From the NCBI GenBank assembly GCA_022788185.1, contig JALEVV010000070.1, positions 1-57,764 of the forward strand: a DNA stretch of 57,764 bases, in the 5' to 3' direction. A program made the position numbers and the translations under genes. The notes below the pieces were generated by a model. That model was not told the origin of the DNA and searched no databases. It worked only from the letters and a program-made list of their open reading frames with translations. The DNA is from Spirochaetales bacterium (GTDB lineage Bacteria > Spirochaetota > Spirochaetia > Sphaerochaetales > Sphaerochaetaceae). This document shows, in pieces, positions 2,057 to 9,377 of the stretch (positions within the stretch are counted from its first letter, which is position 1; every line of letters starts with the position of its first letter).

Positions 2057-3733
2057 ATGTGTGGTTTCGTAGGTATGTTCGACATCAGGAAGGATGCATC
2101 CGCTTACCGTGAGAGCGTAATCCAGATGTCAAGGAAGATCCGCCACCGCGGACCGGACTGGTCCGGTATTTTCACAGGTCCCGACTGTGTCATCTCTCAT
2201 GAGAGACTTTCCATCGTAGACCCGCTTTCGGGTAAGCAGCCGCTTTACAGCAAGGATGGAAAGCTCGTCCTTGCCGCAAACGGTGAGATATACAACCATC
2301 AGGAGATCAGGGAGCGTTATAAGGGTAAATATGAATTCCTGACAAAGAGTGACTGTGAGGTCATCCTGGCCCTGTACCGCGACAAGGGAGTTGATTTCCT
2401 TGAAGACCTCAATGGCATCTTCGCCTTCTGTCTTTATGACAGCGAGAAGGATGTCTACATGGTCGCCCGCGACCATATCGGCATCATTCCCCTCTACCAG
2501 GGATGGGACAGCGACGGTCATTACTATGTGGCCTCCGAGCTTAAGGCCCTTGAGGGAAAGTGCACCACCATCACCGAGTTCATGCCCGGTACCTATTTCT
2601 CGTCCGAGACCGGAAAGACCGTCCAGTGGTATAAGCGCGACTGGGAGAGCTATGAGAACGTTAAGGATAACGGAGCTTCCGTTGATGAAGTCCGTCAGGC
2701 CCTTGAGGATGCGGTAAAGCGCCAGATGATGAGTGACGTACCCTACGGCGTTCTGCTTTCAGGCGGTCTGGACAGCTCGGTAATTGCCGCGATCACGGCA
2801 AAGTTTGCAAAGAACAGAATCGAGAGCGGTGACTCAGAGGCCGCATGGTGGCCGCGTCTCCACTCCTTTGCCATCGGACTGGAGGGTTCTCCCGATCTCA
2901 TTGCCGCAAGAAAGGCTGCCGAATACATCGGTACCGTTCACCACGAGGTCCACTTCACGATTCAGGAAGCCCTCGATGCGATCGATGACGTCATCTATCA
3001 CCTGGAGACCTATGATATCACGACGGTAAGGGCCTCAACGCCTATGTTCCTCCTGGCCCGCGTCATCAAGAGCATGGGTATCAAGATGGTGCTCTCCGGT
3101 GAGGGCTCCGATGAGCTCTTCGGCGGATATCTCTACTTCCATAAGGCACCCAACGCAAAGGAATTCCATGAGGAGACGGTAAGAAAGCTTTCCAAGCTCC
3201 ATCTCTATGACTGTCTGAGAGCCAACAAGGCCCTGGCTGCCTGGGGCGTGGAGGGAAGGGTTCCCTTCCTTGACAAGGAGTTCATTGATGTGGCCATGAG
3301 ACTGAACCCGAAGGCAAAGATGGCAGTCGATGAGAACGGCAAACACAGGATCGAGAAGTGGATCGTCCGTGAGGCATTCAAGGACTATCTCCCCGATGAG
3401 ATCGTCTGGAGGCAGAAGGAACAGTTCTCCGACGGTGTAGGCTACTCATGGATCGACACCCTGAAGAAGCTTACCGATGAGGAAGTCAGCGATACCCAGT
3501 TCGCCCTTGCCGACAAGAGATTCCCGATCAACACTCCGGCAACCAAGGAAGAGTATTACTACAGGTCCATCTTCGCCAGGCACTTCCCGTCGGAGTCTGC
3601 CGCAAAGTGCGTGCCACATGAAGCCTCAGTTGCCTGCTCAACCGCAAAGGCCCTTGAGTGGGATGAGGCGTTCAGAACGATGAACGAGCCCTCGGGCAGA
3701 GCCGTTGCAGGCGTGCACGACAAGGCCTACTGA
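2057..3733 (+). CDS. asnB: Asparagine synthase (glutamine-hydrolysing)
   Basis: A 558-residue AsnB that makes asparagine from aspartate, ATP and glutamine in the cytoplasm. Cys2 is the glutaminase nucleophile (MCGFVGMF), which fixes the start at 2057; AGGGAGGGT just upstream is the SD. The N-terminal class II glutaminase domain includes RHRGPD. The synthetase domain has the PP-loop SGGLDSS at about residue 235, then SGEGSDELFGGY and RVPFLD. The length matches the E. coli enzyme (about 554). The 3' end overlaps the convergent acetyltransferase gene by 7 bases. Confidence 0.95.
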   Translation: MCGFVGMFDIRKDASAYRESVIQMSRKIRHRGPDWSGIFTGPDCVISHERLSIVDPLSGKQPLYSKDGKLVLAANGEIYNHQEIRERYKGKYEFLTKSDCEVILALYRDKGVDFLEDLNGIFAFCLYDSEKDVYMVARDHIGIIPLYQGWDSDGHYYVASELKALEGKCTTITEFMPGTYFSSETGKTVQWYKRDWESYENVKDNGASVDEVRQALEDAVKRQMMSDVPYGVLLSGGLDSSVIAAITAKFAKNRIESGDSEAAWWPRLHSFAIGLEGSPDLIAARKAAEYIGTVHHEVHFTIQEALDAIDDVIYHLETYDITTVRASTPMFLLARVIKSMGIKMVLSGEGSDELFGGYLYFHKAPNAKEFHEETVRKLSKLHLYDCLRANKALAAWGVEGRVPFLDKEFIDVAMRLNPKAKMAVDENGKHRIEKWIVREAFKDYLPDEIVWRQKEQFSDGVGYSWIDTLKKLTDEEVSDTQFALADKRFPINTPATKEEYYYRSIFARHFPSESAAKCVPHEASVACSTAKALEWDEAFRTMNEPSGRAVAGVHDKAY

Positions 3734-4284
3734 TTTAATGATATCCCGGGCTTCTCCGGCAGGGGCTCGGGAGCAAACTTCACCATGTGAATGTGGTCCT
3801 CCCACACTCCGTTGATGAGCAGGTACTTCCTCCCTATGCCTTCACTTTCGTAGCCGCATTTTTCCAGAACCCTTCTGGATGCAGTGTTGCGCGGCATCAC
3901 ATTGGCTTCGATCCTGTGGAGGCCCAGGGTGGAGAAGGCATACTCCGTGACCCGGTTCACCGCCTCCGTCATATATCCCCTGCATATGTGATCCTTGTCC
4001 AGGGCGTAGCCTAGGAAGCAGGATCGGAACGCACCCCACACGATGTTATTCAGTGCTATCGTCCCTATGATCCTGCTGCTTGCGGGAAGCGTGATGTAGA
4101 ATCTCACGCCTGTTCTTTCCTTTTCGTTCTTAATTGCCTTGCCGATAAGCCTGTCAATTGACTCGGCTGTATAGAAGGAATCATCCCTTACACCCTCGTA
4201 GGGGGCAAGGAATGTCCGGTTTCTTCTGTAGTAGTCAAGGACCTCCGGAATAAGCTCCTTACTGGCTTTGGTCAGAATGATCAT
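3727..4284 (-). CDS. RimJ/RimL-type GNAT acetyltransferase
   Basis: A 185-residue protein with the acetyltransf_3 pattern: IGTIALNNI, then LGYALDKDHICRGYMTEAV (acetyl-CoA loop), then HRIEANVMPRNTASRRVLEKCGY and a C-terminal LINGVWEDHIHM. This is the RimJ/RimL fold that acetylates protein N-termini or small amines; the real substrate is unknown. Start at MIILTKA (4284): a perfect TATAAT lies 6 bases upstream and no SD is present, suggesting a leaderless mRNA. Convergent with asnB. Confidence 0.85.
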   Translation of the reverse strand: MIILTKASKELIPEVLDYYRRNRTFLAPYEGVRDDSFYTAESIDRLIGKAIKNEKERTGVRFYITLPASSRIIGTIALNNIVWGAFRSCFLGYALDKDHICRGYMTEAVNRVTEYAFSTLGLHRIEANVMPRNTASRRVLEKCGYESEGIGRKYLLINGVWEDHIHMVKFAPEPLPEKPGISLNQ

Positions 4285-4317
4285 AGCTTCATTATATATC
4301 AATGATCTCCTGTATGC

Positions 4318-4346
4318 TTGACAATCTCCCACTGATTGGGCATTCT
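4318..4346 (+). promoter_or_regulatory. Predicted promoter of the metNI leader transcript
   Basis: TTGACA (4318-4323), a 17-base spacer and a weak -10 CATTCT (4341-4346). The expected start near 4353 is within a few bases of the ATG at 4355 that opens the Met-rich leader ORF. Confidence 0.45.
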
Positions 4347-4354
4347 CAGACTGT

Positions 4355-4435
4355 ATGAACAAAGCTCCCTGTTTTTACATGTGCATGTCAATGATGATGT
4401 CCCTGATGCATATCGAGGGCTCTTCCCGCATGTAA
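4355..4435 (+). CDS. Methionine-rich leader peptide of metNI (attenuator ORF)
   Basis: A 26-codon ORF with 8 methionines. From the internal ATG at 4379 it is 18 codons with 7 Met, including ATG-ATG-ATG at 4391-4399 and further Met codons at 4385, 4406 and 4430; the stop is TAA at 4433-4435. It sits between a promoter and an intrinsic terminator in front of the methionine importer genes metNI. The codon content matches the cargo of the downstream genes, as in his, trp and leu leaders. No SD is seen before either ATG; the 4355 start could be leaderless. Confidence 0.75.
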   Translation: MNKAPCFYMCMSMMMSLMHIEGSSRM

Positions 4436-4492
4436 TGGAAAACAGATGATTTCAGATACAGAGGAGAGCCCGGCAAGAGCTCTCCTTTTTTT
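4417..4492 (+). promoter_or_regulatory. Transcription attenuator of metNI (antiterminator and terminator)
   Basis: Terminator: GGAGAGC (4463-4469) pairs with GCTCTCC (4479-4485), followed by seven T (4486-4492). Antiterminator: GGGCTCTTC (4417-4425), inside the leader ORF after the main Met run, can pair with GGAGAGCCC (4463-4471), nine pairs with one G-U, and this consumes the left arm of the terminator. A ribosome stalled on Met codons would leave 4417-4425 free and allow read-through; a ribosome reaching the stop at 4433 would cover it and allow termination. No SAM riboswitch core is present. Confidence 0.75.
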
Positions 4493-4503
4493 GTGAGGAT
4501 CGG

Positions 4504-5574
4504 ATGATAGAAATCGAGAATGTGACGAAGATATTCAGGACAAAGGCAGGGTCCGTGGAAGCCCTGAAGGATGTGAACCTGAAGATCAATGAAGGTGAGA
4601 CTTACGGTGTCATCGGTTATTCCGGTGCGGGTAAATCCACTCTGGTAAGGTGTATCAACTTCCTGGAAACCCCCGATATCGGGGCCGTGACCATCGACGG
4701 CAAACGCATAGAGGTCGACGGGGACAGGCTTTTTCTGACTGATAACGGGGAGAGGAAGAAGCTCTCGGAGAAGGAGCTTTCCAGAATCCGAGGAAGCATC
4801 GGAATGATATTCCAGCACTTCAATCTCCTGGACAGGTCGAATGTCTTCGATAACGTGGCCTATCCCCTCAGACATACGGGAAAGACCAAAGCCGAGATCC
4901 ATGACAGGGTTTTCCAGCTGCTTGAGCTGGTTGGCCTTGAATCAAAGGTGAACTCATATCCGTCCGAGCTCTCCGGCGGACAGAAGCAGAGGGTCGCCAT
5001 CGCCAGGGCCCTTGCCAACAATCCCAAGATCCTGCTTTCCGATGAGGCCACCAGTGCCCTTGATCCGGATGCAACCGAGTCAATCCTCAACCTTCTGAAG
5101 GACCTGAACAGGAAGCTCGGCGTAACCATCGTCGTCATCACCCATGAGATGGGTGTCATCAAGACTATCTGTGACAGGGTAGCGGTGATGGAAAGGGGTC
5201 GTGTGGTTGAGGAAGGAAAGGTCTATGACATCTTCTCAAATCCGAAGCAGGCCATCACGCGCAGATTCGTCAACTCCACCTCATCCCTTTCCAAGGTCGA
5301 TGAGCTCGTAAGGAAGGACTCACCCCTCGTGAAGTCAGGGGCGGGTGAGAGCAGGCTGTACAGGCTTGTCTTTGACAAGAAGGTCAATTCTCCGGTCATA
5401 TCCGAGGTTTCCAGAAAGTTCGGAGTCGATTTCAACATCATTCTTGCCAACGTTGAGGTGATCGGGGATGAGACGATCGGGGCCATGATAGTCAAGATTA
5501 TCGGTGACGATAAGGCAATAGACGCGGCACTTACGTATCTCAGTGCCACGAAAGTAAGAGTGGAGGCAGTGTGA
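4504..5574 (+). CDS. metN: Methionine ABC transporter ATP-binding protein
   Basis: A 356-residue ATPase energising D/L-methionine import. Walker A GYSGAGKST begins near residue 38, the ABC signature LSGGQKQR and Walker B ILLSDEAT follow, with the switch His in VITHEMG. The C-terminal 80 residues form the NIL/ACT-like domain typical of MetN, which binds methionine and inhibits transport. A GAGGAT SD precedes ATG 4504. The stop overlaps the metI start (TGATG). Expression is probably controlled by the Met-codon attenuator upstream. Confidence 0.95.
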   Translation: MIEIENVTKIFRTKAGSVEALKDVNLKINEGETYGVIGYSGAGKSTLVRCINFLETPDIGAVTIDGKRIEVDGDRLFLTDNGERKKLSEKELSRIRGSIGMIFQHFNLLDRSNVFDNVAYPLRHTGKTKAEIHDRVFQLLELVGLESKVNSYPSELSGGQKQRVAIARALANNPKILLSDEATSALDPDATESILNLLKDLNRKLGVTIVVITHEMGVIKTICDRVAVMERGRVVEEGKVYDIFSNPKQAITRRFVNSTSSLSKVDELVRKDSPLVKSGAGESRLYRLVFDKKVNSPVISEVSRKFGVDFNIILANVEVIGDETIGAMIVKIIGDDKAIDAALTYLSATKVRVEAV

Positions 5575-6293
5575 TGGAAGATTTCATTAAGACAGTGGCG
5601 CCCAATATCTGGGCATACAGGACAAGGTTCATCCAGAGCCTTGCGGATACCTGGCAGCTCTTCCTTATTCCGGGCCTGATCTCCTTCTTCCTCGGCATCT
5701 TCTTCGGTGTAATCCTTACAATAACCCGTAAGGGAGGCATAAAGCAGAATCTGGTGGTATTCAGGATCATCGACACGATCATCAATGTTTTCAGGGCCAT
5801 TCCCTTCGTCATCCTGCTTATTTTCCTCATTCCCTTCACCCGTCTCATGGTGGGAACGGCAATCGGAGTCAGGGGCGCTGTCATCCCCCTGATCTTCGGA
5901 ACGGCACCCTTCTTCTCCCGTCAGGTGGAGACTGCCCTTGCCAACGTCTCTCCCGGAAAGATCGAGGCGGCCCGCGCAATGGGCTCCGGCACATTCGGAC
6001 TCATATTCCGTGTCTATCTCCATGAAGCTGTTCCCGAGCTTGCCAGGGTGACCACGATCACGGCAATAAGCCTGGTGGGACTCACCACCATGGCCGGTGC
6101 GGTAGGTGCAGGCGGTATCGGTTCGTTTGCCATCAACTACGGTCAGGGTCAGGGACACCCCGACATCGTCAACGTCTGTGTTGTCGTCCTGCTCATTGCA
6201 GTGTGCATCATCCAGGCGATCGGATCCTTTATCGCGAAGAAAACCACCAACAGAACGTTCATACACAGAATTTACAAAAAAGATTCAGTCTGA
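5574..6293 (+). CDS. metI: Methionine ABC transporter permease
   Basis: A 239-residue inner-membrane permease with about five hydrophobic segments. The EAA motif that contacts the ATPase reads EAARAMGSGTFGLIFRVYLHEA, and the flanking sequence (ISLVGLTTMAGAVGAGGIGSFAINYG) is characteristic of MetI. A GTG at 5571 also opens the frame, but ATG 5574 overlaps the metN stop in the usual coupled manner. metN and metI form one operon; metQ lies 262 bases downstream behind its own regulatory region. Confidence 0.95.
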   Translation: MEDFIKTVAPNIWAYRTRFIQSLADTWQLFLIPGLISFFLGIFFGVILTITRKGGIKQNLVVFRIIDTIINVFRAIPFVILLIFLIPFTRLMVGTAIGVRGAVIPLIFGTAPFFSRQVETALANVSPGKIEAARAMGSGTFGLIFRVYLHEAVPELARVTTITAISLVGLTTMAGAVGAGGIGSFAINYGQGQGHPDIVNVCVVVLLIAVCIIQAIGSFIAKKTTNRTFIHRIYKKDSV

Positions 6294-6307
6294 ACTGAAA
6301 TAAAGTA

Positions 6308-6325
6308 GTTGAATATTTATGCATG
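6308..6325. promoter_or_regulatory. ArgR-type operator (ARG box) upstream of the metQ leader
   Basis: GTTGAATATTTATGCATG matches the ARG-box pattern TNTGNATWWWWATNCANA at 16 of 18 positions, with both core half-sites (TGNAT and ATNCA) intact and a 4-base AT spacer. It overlaps a candidate -35 (TTGAAT, 6309-6314; weak -10 TAGGGT at 6332-6337), so binding would block initiation. Confidence 0.55.
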
Positions 6326-6364
6326 AAGTGGTAGGGTATTGCTATCAAGTGCAGGAGGGTTGAT

Positions 6365-6436
6365 ATGAACACAATGAATAATTCAATGATGTCATACATG
6401 TGCCAGCTCTCCATGTGCATGCCCTGCCGGGCATAG
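6365..6436 (+). CDS. Methionine-rich leader peptide upstream of metQ
   Basis: A 23-codon ORF ending in TAG, with 7 methionine codons (6365, 6374, 6386, 6389, 6398, 6413, 6419) and four cysteine or tyrosine codons. A strong SD, AGGAGGG (6353-6359), lies 5 bases before the ATG, so it is very likely translated. It lies between metI and metQ. Codon content and location indicate a second methionine-sensing leader, independent in sequence from the one before metN. Confidence 0.75.
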   Translation: MNTMNNSMMSYMCQLSMCMPCRA

Positions 6437-6449
6437 TATCTTCTTTTAT
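6419..6449 (+). terminator. Hairpin overlapping the end of the metQ leader ORF
   Basis: ATGCCC (6419-6424) and GGGCAT (6429-6434) form a perfect stem with a TGCC loop, followed by an interrupted T-rich stretch (TCTTCTTTTATTT). The left arm plus loop can alternatively pair with GGTAGGGTAT at 6330-6339 (10 pairs, two G-U) in read-through RNA from metNI. The stem includes the last leader codons, so a terminating ribosome would occupy it. A weak terminator or pause site is likelier than a strong terminator. Confidence 0.45.
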
Positions 6450-6510
6450 TTAATCTAATTACATTTTATCTTAATTGCTATTGGACGATATTATTATCTC
6501 GTGCATATCT

Positions 6511-6528
6511 TGTGCATATTTATGCATA
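6511..6528. promoter_or_regulatory. ArgR-type operator (ARG box), perfect consensus, before metQ
   Basis: TGTGCATATTTATGCATA matches TNTGNATWWWWATNCANA at all 18 positions and has an internal TGCATA/TATGCA inverted repeat. It lies 28 bases before the metQ ATG. The 12-mer ATATTTATGCAT is shared with the box at 6308-6325. An argR gene is present at 33612-34082. Confidence 0.6.
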
Positions 6529-6555
6529 ATCACATATTCTTGAAAGGAAGAAAAA

Positions 6556-7467
6556 ATGAAAAAGCTTATCATCACATTATTAATCGCAGCTCTGGCCCTC
6601 ACAGGCGTTTTCGCAGCAGGTACAAGCGAAAAGTCAGCTCCCGTTAAGATCGGTGTACCCGATGACGCAACCAACCAGGCAAGGGCAATCAAGCTCCTGG
6701 AGACCGCCGGTCTCATCAAGGTCGATCCCGCAGTGGGATACTCCCCTGAGATCAAGGACGTCACCGAATACATCTACAACATCGAAATCATACCCACCAC
6801 GGCAAACACCCTTTTCTCCACTCTCAATGACTTCGGCGCATCAACCATCAACGGTACCTACGCAACCTCCGCAGGACTTGTCCCCTCAAAAGACGCCATC
6901 CTTATCGAGACTCAGGACGAAGACGGTAACAATCCGTACGTGAACATCATAGTTGCCCGCACTGCAGAGAAGAATGATCCCGACTTTGCAAAGGTCGTTT
7001 CCGCGTACCAGACCGAGCTTGTCGCAGAGTACCTCCTCGCAAAGTACAAGGAAGCTTACTTCCCCGCATTCAGGTATGACAGCTCCTCAACTCAGTATCC
7101 TGACGTCGTGGCAGAGATCGACAGCTATGTTTCCTCTTCCGCCGGAAAGAGAGTCGTGAAGGTCGGTCTATGCGGTGCCGCAAACGAGTACTGGAATGCA
7201 GTTCAGAAGGTCCTCGACGACAGAGGCGACAAGATCTTCATCGAGCGTGTTGAGTTTGATGCATACAACCTCCCCAACGAAGCCCTGAACAACGGAGACA
7301 TCGACCTCAATGCCTTCCAGCACAAGGCTTACCTCAACAAGGAAGTTGCTGCCAACGGATATAAGATCGAGGCCATCGGCGATACCCTCATCGCTCCGCT
7401 CTCCCTCTATTCCAGGAAGGCTGCAAGCGTTGAAGAGCTGAAGAATCTGGCTGGACTTGCAAAATGA
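6556..7467 (+). CDS. metQ: Methionine-binding protein MetQ, circularly permuted
   Basis: A 303-residue periplasmic binding protein partner of MetNI. A signal peptide (residues 1 to about 20, ending TGVFAAGTSE) has no lipobox cysteine. The order of the mature protein is swapped: residues 30 to about 165 correspond to the second half of standard MetQ (IGVPDDATNQARAIKLLE, then AGLIKV, ASTINGTYATSAGL, NPYVNIIVAR), while about 199-303 correspond to the first half (VVKVGLCGA, FIERVEFDAYNLPNEAL, GDIDLNAFQHKAYLN, LYSRKAASVEELKN). Each half occurs once, so this is a permutation, not a duplication. SD AAGGAAG. The stop overlaps the next gene (ATGA). Confidence 0.9.
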   Translation: MKKLIITLLIAALALTGVFAAGTSEKSAPVKIGVPDDATNQARAIKLLETAGLIKVDPAVGYSPEIKDVTEYIYNIEIIPTTANTLFSTLNDFGASTINGTYATSAGLVPSKDAILIETQDEDGNNPYVNIIVARTAEKNDPDFAKVVSAYQTELVAEYLLAKYKEAYFPAFRYDSSSTQYPDVVAEIDSYVSSSAGKRVVKVGLCGAANEYWNAVQKVLDDRGDKIFIERVEFDAYNLPNEALNNGDIDLNAFQHKAYLNKEVAANGYKIEAIGDTLIAPLSLYSRKAASVEELKNLAGLAK

Positions 7468-8669
7468 GTTATACGGCTGAATCAATAAGAAATGAAGCCC
7501 TTCAGGAGAGAGACTATGCGGTCTCTCTCCGTCGTTATTTCCACACCCATCCCGAACTTCCCTGTGAGGAGTGGGGCACTGCGGAAAGAATTGAGAAGGA
7601 GCTTCACGAACTGGGGCTTGAGACCGTTAGGGTAGGAGAGACCGGTGTTTATGCGCTGCTTGAAGGGGAGGAGAAGGGCGGACGTGTCATACTCAGGGCC
7701 GATATCGATGCCCTTCCCGTAACGGAAACCCATATGTGTCCGTACAGGAGCGTGAATGAGGGAAAGATGCATGCCTGCGGCCATGATGCCCATACTGCGG
7801 CCCTTCTGGCTGCTGCCCGGATACTGGTCAGACACAGGGCTGACATCAAAGGCTCCGTGGCCTTCTGTTTCCAGCAGGCAGAGGAGATCGGGTACGGTGC
7901 CAACATCTTCGTGAAGGAAGGATATGTCAAGGGAGACAGGTCCTTCGGCATCCATCTCGCTTCCAACATGAGGTGCGGAACCGTATCGGCCACTCCCGGA
8001 CCCAACAACGCATCCGTTGATTTCTTCAGGATAAAAGTCCATGGAAGGTGTGCCCATGTGTCCACGCCTGAAAAGGGCGTTGATGCCGCGTACATCGCTT
8101 CCGCGATTGTCGTGGGTGCCCAGGCACTGGTGACCAGAAGAACCAATCCCACCGATTCCGTCATCATCGGCATTGGTAAGATCGTGGCGGGAACCGCGTA
8201 CAACATAGTCGCCGGAGAAGCCGTGATAGAGGGAACCATAAGAGTCATGTACCCTGAGATAAGAGAGAAGGTGAAGGGTGAACTGGAAAGACTGGCATGC
8301 TCAACTGCCGACCTTTACGGGGGATCAGCTGAGATCGAGTACCAGGATTTCACCGCTCCCCTGATCAACCCAGAGGGTCCGACCCGGGAAGTTGCAGAAG
8401 TTGCATCCCAGCTGTTCGGGCGGGAAAACGTCGTTACCAACAGACCGTACAGCCTGGGCGGGGATGACTTTGCCGAGTTCATCCTGGAAGTTCCGGGTTG
8501 TTATGCCTATGTGGGTTCCGGCAATCCTGAGCGCCCTGAGACCGAGGTTGCACACCACGACTCAAAGTTCGACATCGATGAGGACTGTCTCGTCGTTGCA
8601 GCGGCTCTTCATGCGGCATATGCCCTGGAGTATCTTGACGGCACTCTACAGAGCGTCGGTACCAAATAA
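7464..8669 (+). CDS. M20-family amidohydrolase (N-acyl-amino-acid deacylase type)
   Basis: A 401-residue cytoplasmic metallo-amidohydrolase of the ILR1/HipO/YtnL type. Metal and catalytic motifs are HACGHDAHTAALLAAA (about residues 96-111), QQAEEIGYGA (catalytic Glu pair), GIHL and the late GGDDFAEF. The family removes acyl groups from N-acylated amino acids. Translational coupling to metQ (ATGA) suggests it releases methionine, or a related amino acid, from an imported N-acyl form; this is inference from context. Confidence 0.85.
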   Translation: MSYTAESIRNEALQERDYAVSLRRYFHTHPELPCEEWGTAERIEKELHELGLETVRVGETGVYALLEGEEKGGRVILRADIDALPVTETHMCPYRSVNEGKMHACGHDAHTAALLAAARILVRHRADIKGSVAFCFQQAEEIGYGANIFVKEGYVKGDRSFGIHLASNMRCGTVSATPGPNNASVDFFRIKVHGRCAHVSTPEKGVDAAYIASAIVVGAQALVTRRTNPTDSVIIGIGKIVAGTAYNIVAGEAVIEGTIRVMYPEIREKVKGELERLACSTADLYGGSAEIEYQDFTAPLINPEGPTREVAEVASQLFGRENVVTNRPYSLGGDDFAEFILEVPGCYAYVGSGNPERPETEVAHHDSKFDIDEDCLVVAAALHAAYALEYLDGTLQSVGTK

Positions 8670-8708
8670 AAAAGCACTCAGAGATAATGACACATGGAGG
8701 AGAAAGCC

Positions 8709-9377
8709 ATGTGTCTTTCTGTAATAAGCAACCTGAAAAGGAGTGTTTTCGGGTGCAACTTCGATATTTCGATGATGGATGCGCGCGTCACTTCCCATAA
8801 GGACGGTGTGTTCATCGAAGCCCTTGACGCTACTGAGGGGTGGATACCGCTCTTCGGTGCGGGACCTGACAGGATCTTCGTCACGATGCCGACCTGCTGG
8901 CCCTGTGATGACAGAAGCGATCCCCGGATGGGAGATGTGAATGTCGTGAATATCGCAGCTGACCTGCTTCTGGGAAAGCGGAAGTTCAGCGATGCGGTGA
9001 AGCTGGCCGAGGATGACCGGATATGCAGTATTCCCTCATTAACCTTTCAGTGCCAGGTTGCTGACAGGAACGGGAACGTGCTCCGATTTACGCCCCACAT
9101 AGGGTGGGAGTACCTGGAAAGGCCACCCTATGCGGTGATGTCCAACTTCTCACCCTTCATCGGGGACGGAATGGGCACCGACCGCTTTGAAACTGCCTCC
9201 ATAATTCTTCAGGAAGCGGACGATTTTTCAGTCATGGATTGCTTTAATCTGCTCATCCGTTGCCGCATGACTTCCCCGCCCACCAGGGTATCCCTGGTCT
9301 TCACACCCGATGACGGGACAGTGTACTGGTGCCCTGACGGGAACATAAATCTTATTGAGAGCGTGAAGATAAAATAA
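8709..9377 (+). CDS. Ntn-type linear amide C-N hydrolase-like protein (Cys2)
   Basis: The GGAGG SD at 8696-8700 selects ATG 8709, giving MCLSV at the N-terminus; Cys2 would become the N-terminal nucleophile after Met removal. SVFGCNFDI resembles the FGRNFD motif of choloylglycine hydrolase/penicillin V acylase (C59/C45 type) families, and a C-terminal RVSLVFTPDDGTVYW fits their last strands. At 222 residues it is shorter than typical members (about 320), and the usual Arg of FGRN is Cys. Downstream of the M20 gene, so possibly also an amide-cleaving salvage enzyme. Family membership is moderately supported; the substrate is unknown. Confidence 0.55.
   Translation: MCLSVISNLKRSVFGCNFDISMMDARVTSHKDGVFIEALDATEGWIPLFGAGPDRIFVTMPTCWPCDDRSDPRMGDVNVVNIAADLLLGKRKFSDAVKLAEDDRICSIPSLTFQCQVADRNGNVLRFTPHIGWEYLERPPYAVMSNFSPFIGDGMGTDRFETASIILQEADDFSVMDCFNLLIRCRMTSPPTRVSLVFTPDDGTVYWCPDGNINLIESVKIK

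Follow-up and report, generated by a model that had tools for sequence, protein, structure and literature searches.

A circularly permuted form of metQ, the gene for the methionine-binding receptor of the MetNI importer, lies in a 57,764-nucleotide stretch of DNA (hereafter, the window) that spans positions 1–57,764 of contig JALEVV010000070.1 (assembly GCA_022788185.1) from a Spirochaetales bacterium, a gut spirochaete represented by a draft assembly in 90 contigs. The gene is an open reading frame (ORF) at 6556–7467 on the forward strand, with an ATG start and a frame that is open throughout, and encodes 303 amino acids. Its partner genes, metN and metI, are located immediately upstream, and the start of an M20 amidohydrolase gene overlaps its stop codon by 4 bases (ATGA), which is the placement described in an earlier inspection of the letters and translated ORFs (the sequence-only reading). 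That reading had also proposed that the two halves of MetQ are encoded in reverse order, that the cut lies at the hinge between the two lobes, and that a linker near residues 170–198 joins the old termini.

A Pfam search of the window protein identified PF03180 (MetQ/NlpA) as the sole family, with a score of 198 bits against a cut-off of 27, in two separate stretches. The best stretch aligns residues 31–172 to profile positions 99–236, and the second, recovered in a search of the window's own genome at nucleotides 7156–7446, aligns to positions 1–96. A phmmer comparison with Escherichia coli MetQ (4yah) placed query residues 201–297 on chain residues 33–129 and query residues 31–158 on chain residues 132–257, both with i-Evalues near 1e-19, far beyond chance; therefore, the order is reversed and the halves are contiguous at the hinge. 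The 22 MetQ-type PDB sequences matched by phmmer are all collinear, and a collinear control protein from a relative (L094) matched the profile as a single stretch, 1–236, whereas no collinear alignment of the window protein with standard MetQ exists in the profile or PDB searches. Because the PF03180 and 4yah matches cover both lobes in reversed order, the window protein is an entire MetQ whose halves have traded places, and shows what is expected of a true natural circular permutant: both segments are present, their order is reversed and the parent is covered. The new termini sit at the inter-lobe hinge, and the linker, found at residues 172–199, is missing in outgroup MetQs; the three proposals of the sequence-only reading are thereby confirmed. 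The protein scores under the curated cut-offs of the NCBIfam MetQ models (171.4 vs 374 and 154.7 vs 228.85), and since neither cut-off is reached by the collinear relatives L094 and L100, divergence contributes to these low scores.

Table 1. Features of the permuted metQ gene and its operon in the window
Feature	Position	Strand	Basis
metN, ABC (ATP-binding cassette) ATPase with NIL domain	4504..5574	+	Pfam PF00005 and PF09383; top NCBIfam model TIGR02314 MetN
metI, ABC permease	5571..6293	+	PF00528; top NCBIfam model MetI
Likely ribosome-binding site of permuted metQ, AAGGAAG	6544..6550	+	Sequence
Signal peptide, about residues 1–21, MKKLIITLLIAALALTGVFAA, without lipobox Cys	6556..6618	+	Sequence; model helix 2–19; lipobox scan of relatives
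Canonical second (C) lobe, now in front, residues 30–172	6643..7071	+	PF03180 positions 99–236; PDB alignment
Linker, residues 173–199 (about 27 aa), old C-terminus to old N-terminus	7072..7152	+	Joint conserved in relatives
Canonical first (N) lobe, now at the back, residues 200–297	7153..7446	+	PF03180 positions 1–96; PDB alignment
New C-terminal tail, LAGLAK, and stop	7447..7467	+	Matches the LxxLAGK motif ending other permuted MetQs
M20 amidohydrolase	7464..8669	+	PF01546; TIGR01891 amidohydrolase above cut-off

No riboswitch was matched upstream of metN when positions 3600–9000 were compared with Rfam at E ≤ 0.1, or for the metN region when the whole window was searched at gathering thresholds. 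The search of the window's own genome also identified a MetQ with the ordinary collinear order, which belongs to another subfamily and is encoded on a different contig.

An AlphaFold2 model of the window protein, built from a 32-sequence alignment, is confident and two-lobed (predicted local distance difference test score, pLDDT, 90.8; predicted template modelling score, pTM, 0.83). An in-order comparison with MetQ crystal structures gives a match over one half only, with residues 28–171 on residues 98–237 of 3tqw (Z 14.7, root-mean-square deviation, rmsd, 2.9, 138 residues), whereas the model of the collinear control L094 (pLDDT 82.2) matches MetQ over its full length (Z 27.3, rmsd 3.4, 240 residues). 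Over its full length, the permuted chain was matched in order by OpuAC, HisG and amino-acid receptors (Z about 9–11). Because the two lobes of the fold look alike, the swapped chain still resembles an ordinary receptor, and this likeness may underlie the tolerance of the fold to permutation. In the predicted structure, the old termini are joined and the MetQ fold appears to be kept.

The methionine-binding residues of Neisseria meningitidis MetQ are R156, N213, N238, Y81, F98, H100 and Y103 (PMC6739813), and these map by motif to R43, N99, N130, Y237, F254, H256 and Y259, respectively, in the window protein, the first three being held in the moved C-lobe and the last four in the moved N-lobe. 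All seven are invariant or at least 90% conserved across 32 permuted proteins, and the ratio of nonsynonymous to synonymous substitution rates (dN/dS) over the metQ gene among close relatives is 0.04–0.07. The constraint and the conserved site provide good support for the permuted MetQ being a working receptor, and a function in methionine transport is inferred. A lipobox is present in about 15 of the 59 permuted relatives that could be scored; the window protein, which is without the lipobox cysteine, is probably free in the periplasm, judging from its sequence, and an N-terminal anchor in the permuted form, if any, would be on the C-lobe side of the hinge. Full stimulation of MetNI in N. meningitidis depends on the lipid of MetQ, and secreted MetQs are predicted in Proteobacteria as well (PMC8416018).

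A locus scan in which each species was represented by a single genome yielded 80 loci, and 61 of these, besides the window, have the permuted order. These include the named isolates Bullifex porci and Lactimicrobium massiliense and draft genomes labelled Spirochaetales, Clostridia, Lachnospiraceae, Erysipelotrichaceae, Pyramidobacter, Coriobacteriales and Anaeroplasma. Within the window's own genus, the permuted MetQ occurs in 4 of 16 genomes, and the other, collinear MetQ in all 16. The window operon is arranged metN-metI-metQ-M20, unlike that of most Clostridia (L041–L046, L048 and L054–L091), in which the permuted metQ is the first gene of an operon metQ-metN-metI without M20. The sequence-only reading, which could not see these 61 loci, understated the case, since the order is widespread; its remark that no natural circular permutant of this family is known to be described agrees with the open literature searched. 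An assembly or binning rearrangement is ruled out because the order recurs in cultured isolates and in many independent assemblies and species. The fragmentation of the draft is the sole point in favour of such an artefact or of a decaying pseudogene, an explanation that the recurrence refutes, together with the open frame, the overlapping M20 start and the strong purifying selection; the gene is intact, as had been proposed.

Relatives of the permuted proteins carry either the normal order or a third one, indicating that nature has re-cut the chain order of MetQ several times. Collinear proteins near the permuted ones were found in twelve Treponema-type loci, L094, L107 and L233. The third order is encoded in L159 (G649), where a signal peptide with a lipobox is followed by the last helix of the C-lobe, the linker, the N-lobe and the remaining C-lobe up to VNIIVARTSDLEN; the usual topology of the fold suggests that this chain was cut at the second inter-lobe crossover. 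In a first MetQ tree (94 rows), constructed before the G655, G1396, G1310 and G649 loci were added, the collinear ingroup proteins are scattered among the permuted ones. After their addition, the approximately unbiased (AU) test rejected a single permuted clade on MetQ (p=2.5e-4) and on a concatenated MetN+MetI tree (p=9e-64). Two sister pairs are decisive for the mixing of orders: G655 (permuted) and G1396 (collinear), supported by 100/100 on MetNI and 100/99 on MetQ, and G1310 (permuted) and G649 (third order), supported by 100/99 on MetNI and left unresolved by MetQ alone. A second permuted group, L153 and its relatives (L217–L219, L224 and L225), is cut at the same hinge in a distant MetQ subfamily with a different linker; within one order, it was found in 10 of 297 genomes. 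This group forms a separate clade (99/98), and the window family groups instead with the collinear E. coli MetQ; the L153 subfamily was permuted independently of the window family.

When the collinear protein of G1396 was aligned with an in silico head-to-tail dimer of the G655 protein, the match extended over 281 residues across the joint with 75% identity and a 2-residue gap, and the third-order protein of G649 aligned with a G1310 dimer over 287 residues with 65% identity. These alignments fit duplication, fusion and trimming, whichever the direction. Tandem metQ arrays, from which such fusions would be expected to start, do occur (five genes in L156, from G186, and two in L157), and tandem metQ genes are frequent enough to provide the duplication. 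Regarding the arrays themselves, L156 (1–4092; L121), from a phylum relative of the window genome, contains at least five tandem collinear metQ genes, and in L104 (3806–5611, equivalent to L157) a tandem pair of collinear metQ genes, with a fast-evolving second copy, lies between metI and M20. Evidence for the direction of change comes from the collinear proteins: the hinge between the N-lobe helix and the C-lobe is 11–19 residues long in the collinear ingroup vs 6–8 in collinear outgroups, and the C-terminal tail is 23–26 residues vs 1–3. In G1396, the long hinge corresponds to the permuted C-terminus followed by the permuted N-terminal leader, and the tail corresponds to the first part of the permuted linker. 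A two-state model, fitted on the MetNI tree with the root set as collinear and the third-order protein left out, gave a log-likelihood (lnL) of -16.61 when both directions were allowed vs -20.57 for gains only, and parsimony required 7 gains if losses were barred, or 1 gain and 4 losses.

The window gene most likely encodes the receptor of the adjacent MetNI importer, with a chain that runs signal peptide, C-lobe, linker and N-lobe and in which, as the sequence and the model suggest, one of the two inter-lobe crossovers is cut and the old termini are tied together. After export, the protein would fold into the usual two-lobed MetQ clamp, bind methionine between the lobes and hand it to MetNI. 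The permuted order would have arisen in an ancestral member of one MetQ subfamily, the probable route being head-to-tail duplication, in-frame fusion and loss of the outer lobes, and some lineages probably undid or re-cut it later, yielding the collinear proteins with scars and the third order. Taken as a whole, this explanation (a permuted MetNI methionine receptor, an ancestral permutation by duplication and fusion, and later undoing or re-cutting in some lineages) is very likely to be correct. As regards its history, one permutation followed by later reversions is the best reading, with its direction inferred from the hinge and tail scars, and it is probable that a single permutation at the first hinge was followed by reversion in at least two lineages, in which a long hinge and a tail derived from the linker stayed behind, and by a re-cut elsewhere in one, which would account for three orders.

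Some points weigh against this history. The long hinge and tail may be ancestral in the collinear proteins, in which case several independent permutations and no reversions could have occurred, and no fused dimer intermediate (NCNC or CNCN) was present among the loci read. Gene remnants that might be duplication fossils were sought past the stop of L094 and L159 and not found; the next gene there is M20. Many separate permutations, each of a collinear ancestor in which hinge and tail were already long and none of them later reversed, would be in keeping with the absence of a single permuted clade and with the separate permutation of the L153 subfamily at the same hinge, which makes a repeated origin possible, and a long tail and N-terminus would supply natural raw material for a linker. 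Nevertheless, we consider such a history unlikely: it requires the 7 gains instead of 1 gain and 4 losses on the MetNI tree and its fit is poorer by 4 log units, the linker can be aligned over all permuted proteins of the clade, and the long hinge in every collinear ingroup protein is left unexplained.

Another reading is a single permuted clade, with the mixing of orders due to tree error or gene transfer. In the first MetQ-only tree such a clade was not rejected (AU p=0.229); with about 240 columns, MetQ by itself is a short alignment, and several nodes are open. The MetNI test concerns the partners, and metQ alone could have switched operons. This possibility is strongly disfavoured, since it was rejected on both MetQ and MetNI once the sister taxa were included, and the two trees give the G655/G1396 pair full support. 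It is also rather doubtful that the permuted receptor binds a ligand other than free methionine, such as an N-acyl amino acid or dipeptide cleaved by the linked M20 enzyme. The M20 gene is in the operon, has an overlapping start and is retained in collinear relatives, but it is missing from most permuted operons of Clostridia; hence, M20 is not tied to the permutation.

Natural circular permutants are mostly known as old single events that join distant proteins, and those formed by duplication and fusion are usually treated as single old events as well. The window protein shares both lobes, the seven site residues and the metNI context with the MetQ/NlpA lipoproteins (PF03180; 4yah, N. meningitidis 6cva and Treponema pallidum Tp32 1xs5), but differs in its reversed lobes, the extra 27-aa linker, the termini at the hinge and the missing lipobox cysteine. 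Among substrate-binding proteins, circular permutation between family members has been reported for the glycine betaine-binding proteins OpuAC and ProX (2b4l, 1r9l and 1sw1) by CPSARST (PMC2395249), and OpuAC aligns end to end with the permuted MetQ model (2b4m, Z 10.7, 216 residues). In contrast to that pair, with less than 24% identity, MetQ neighbours that are 75% identical differ in order, and the MetQ family shows probable reversions and a third order. Permutation via duplication and fusion is listed for plant lectins, saposin-like swaposins and methyltransferases (PMC2395249); as in these cases, the MetQ linker joins the old termini and tandem copies represent a natural precursor, but several changes, including probable reversals, have occurred inside a single subfamily of one gene. 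A search confined to the open literature found no report of a permuted MetQ, or of close receptors in three orders. MetQ receptors with 65–75% identity and the same partners exist in three chain orders, which allows direct tests of chain order against folding, hinge motion and coupling to an ABC importer, and the system allows one to ask how permutation happens and whether it is reversible. The permuted MetQs also provide natural templates for permuted biosensors, and a warning that standard profile scoring under-annotates such proteins.

Further variants of metQ were observed in individual loci. L074 (1–1727) contains two tandem permuted metQ genes, the second of which is divergent with altered site residues, and in L109 (4001–4897) a permuted metQ is broken inside the N-lobe into two adjacent ORFs by a frameshift or stop. 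In L042 (1236–2969, equivalent to L155), metN and metI come after a 578-aa ORF that fuses two receptors, an SBP_bac_3 amino-acid receptor with a lipobox and a permuted MetQ. In L126 (1104–1947), the MetQ N-lobe and C-lobe are encoded in two overlapping frames upstream of metNI, representing a frameshift or a split receptor.
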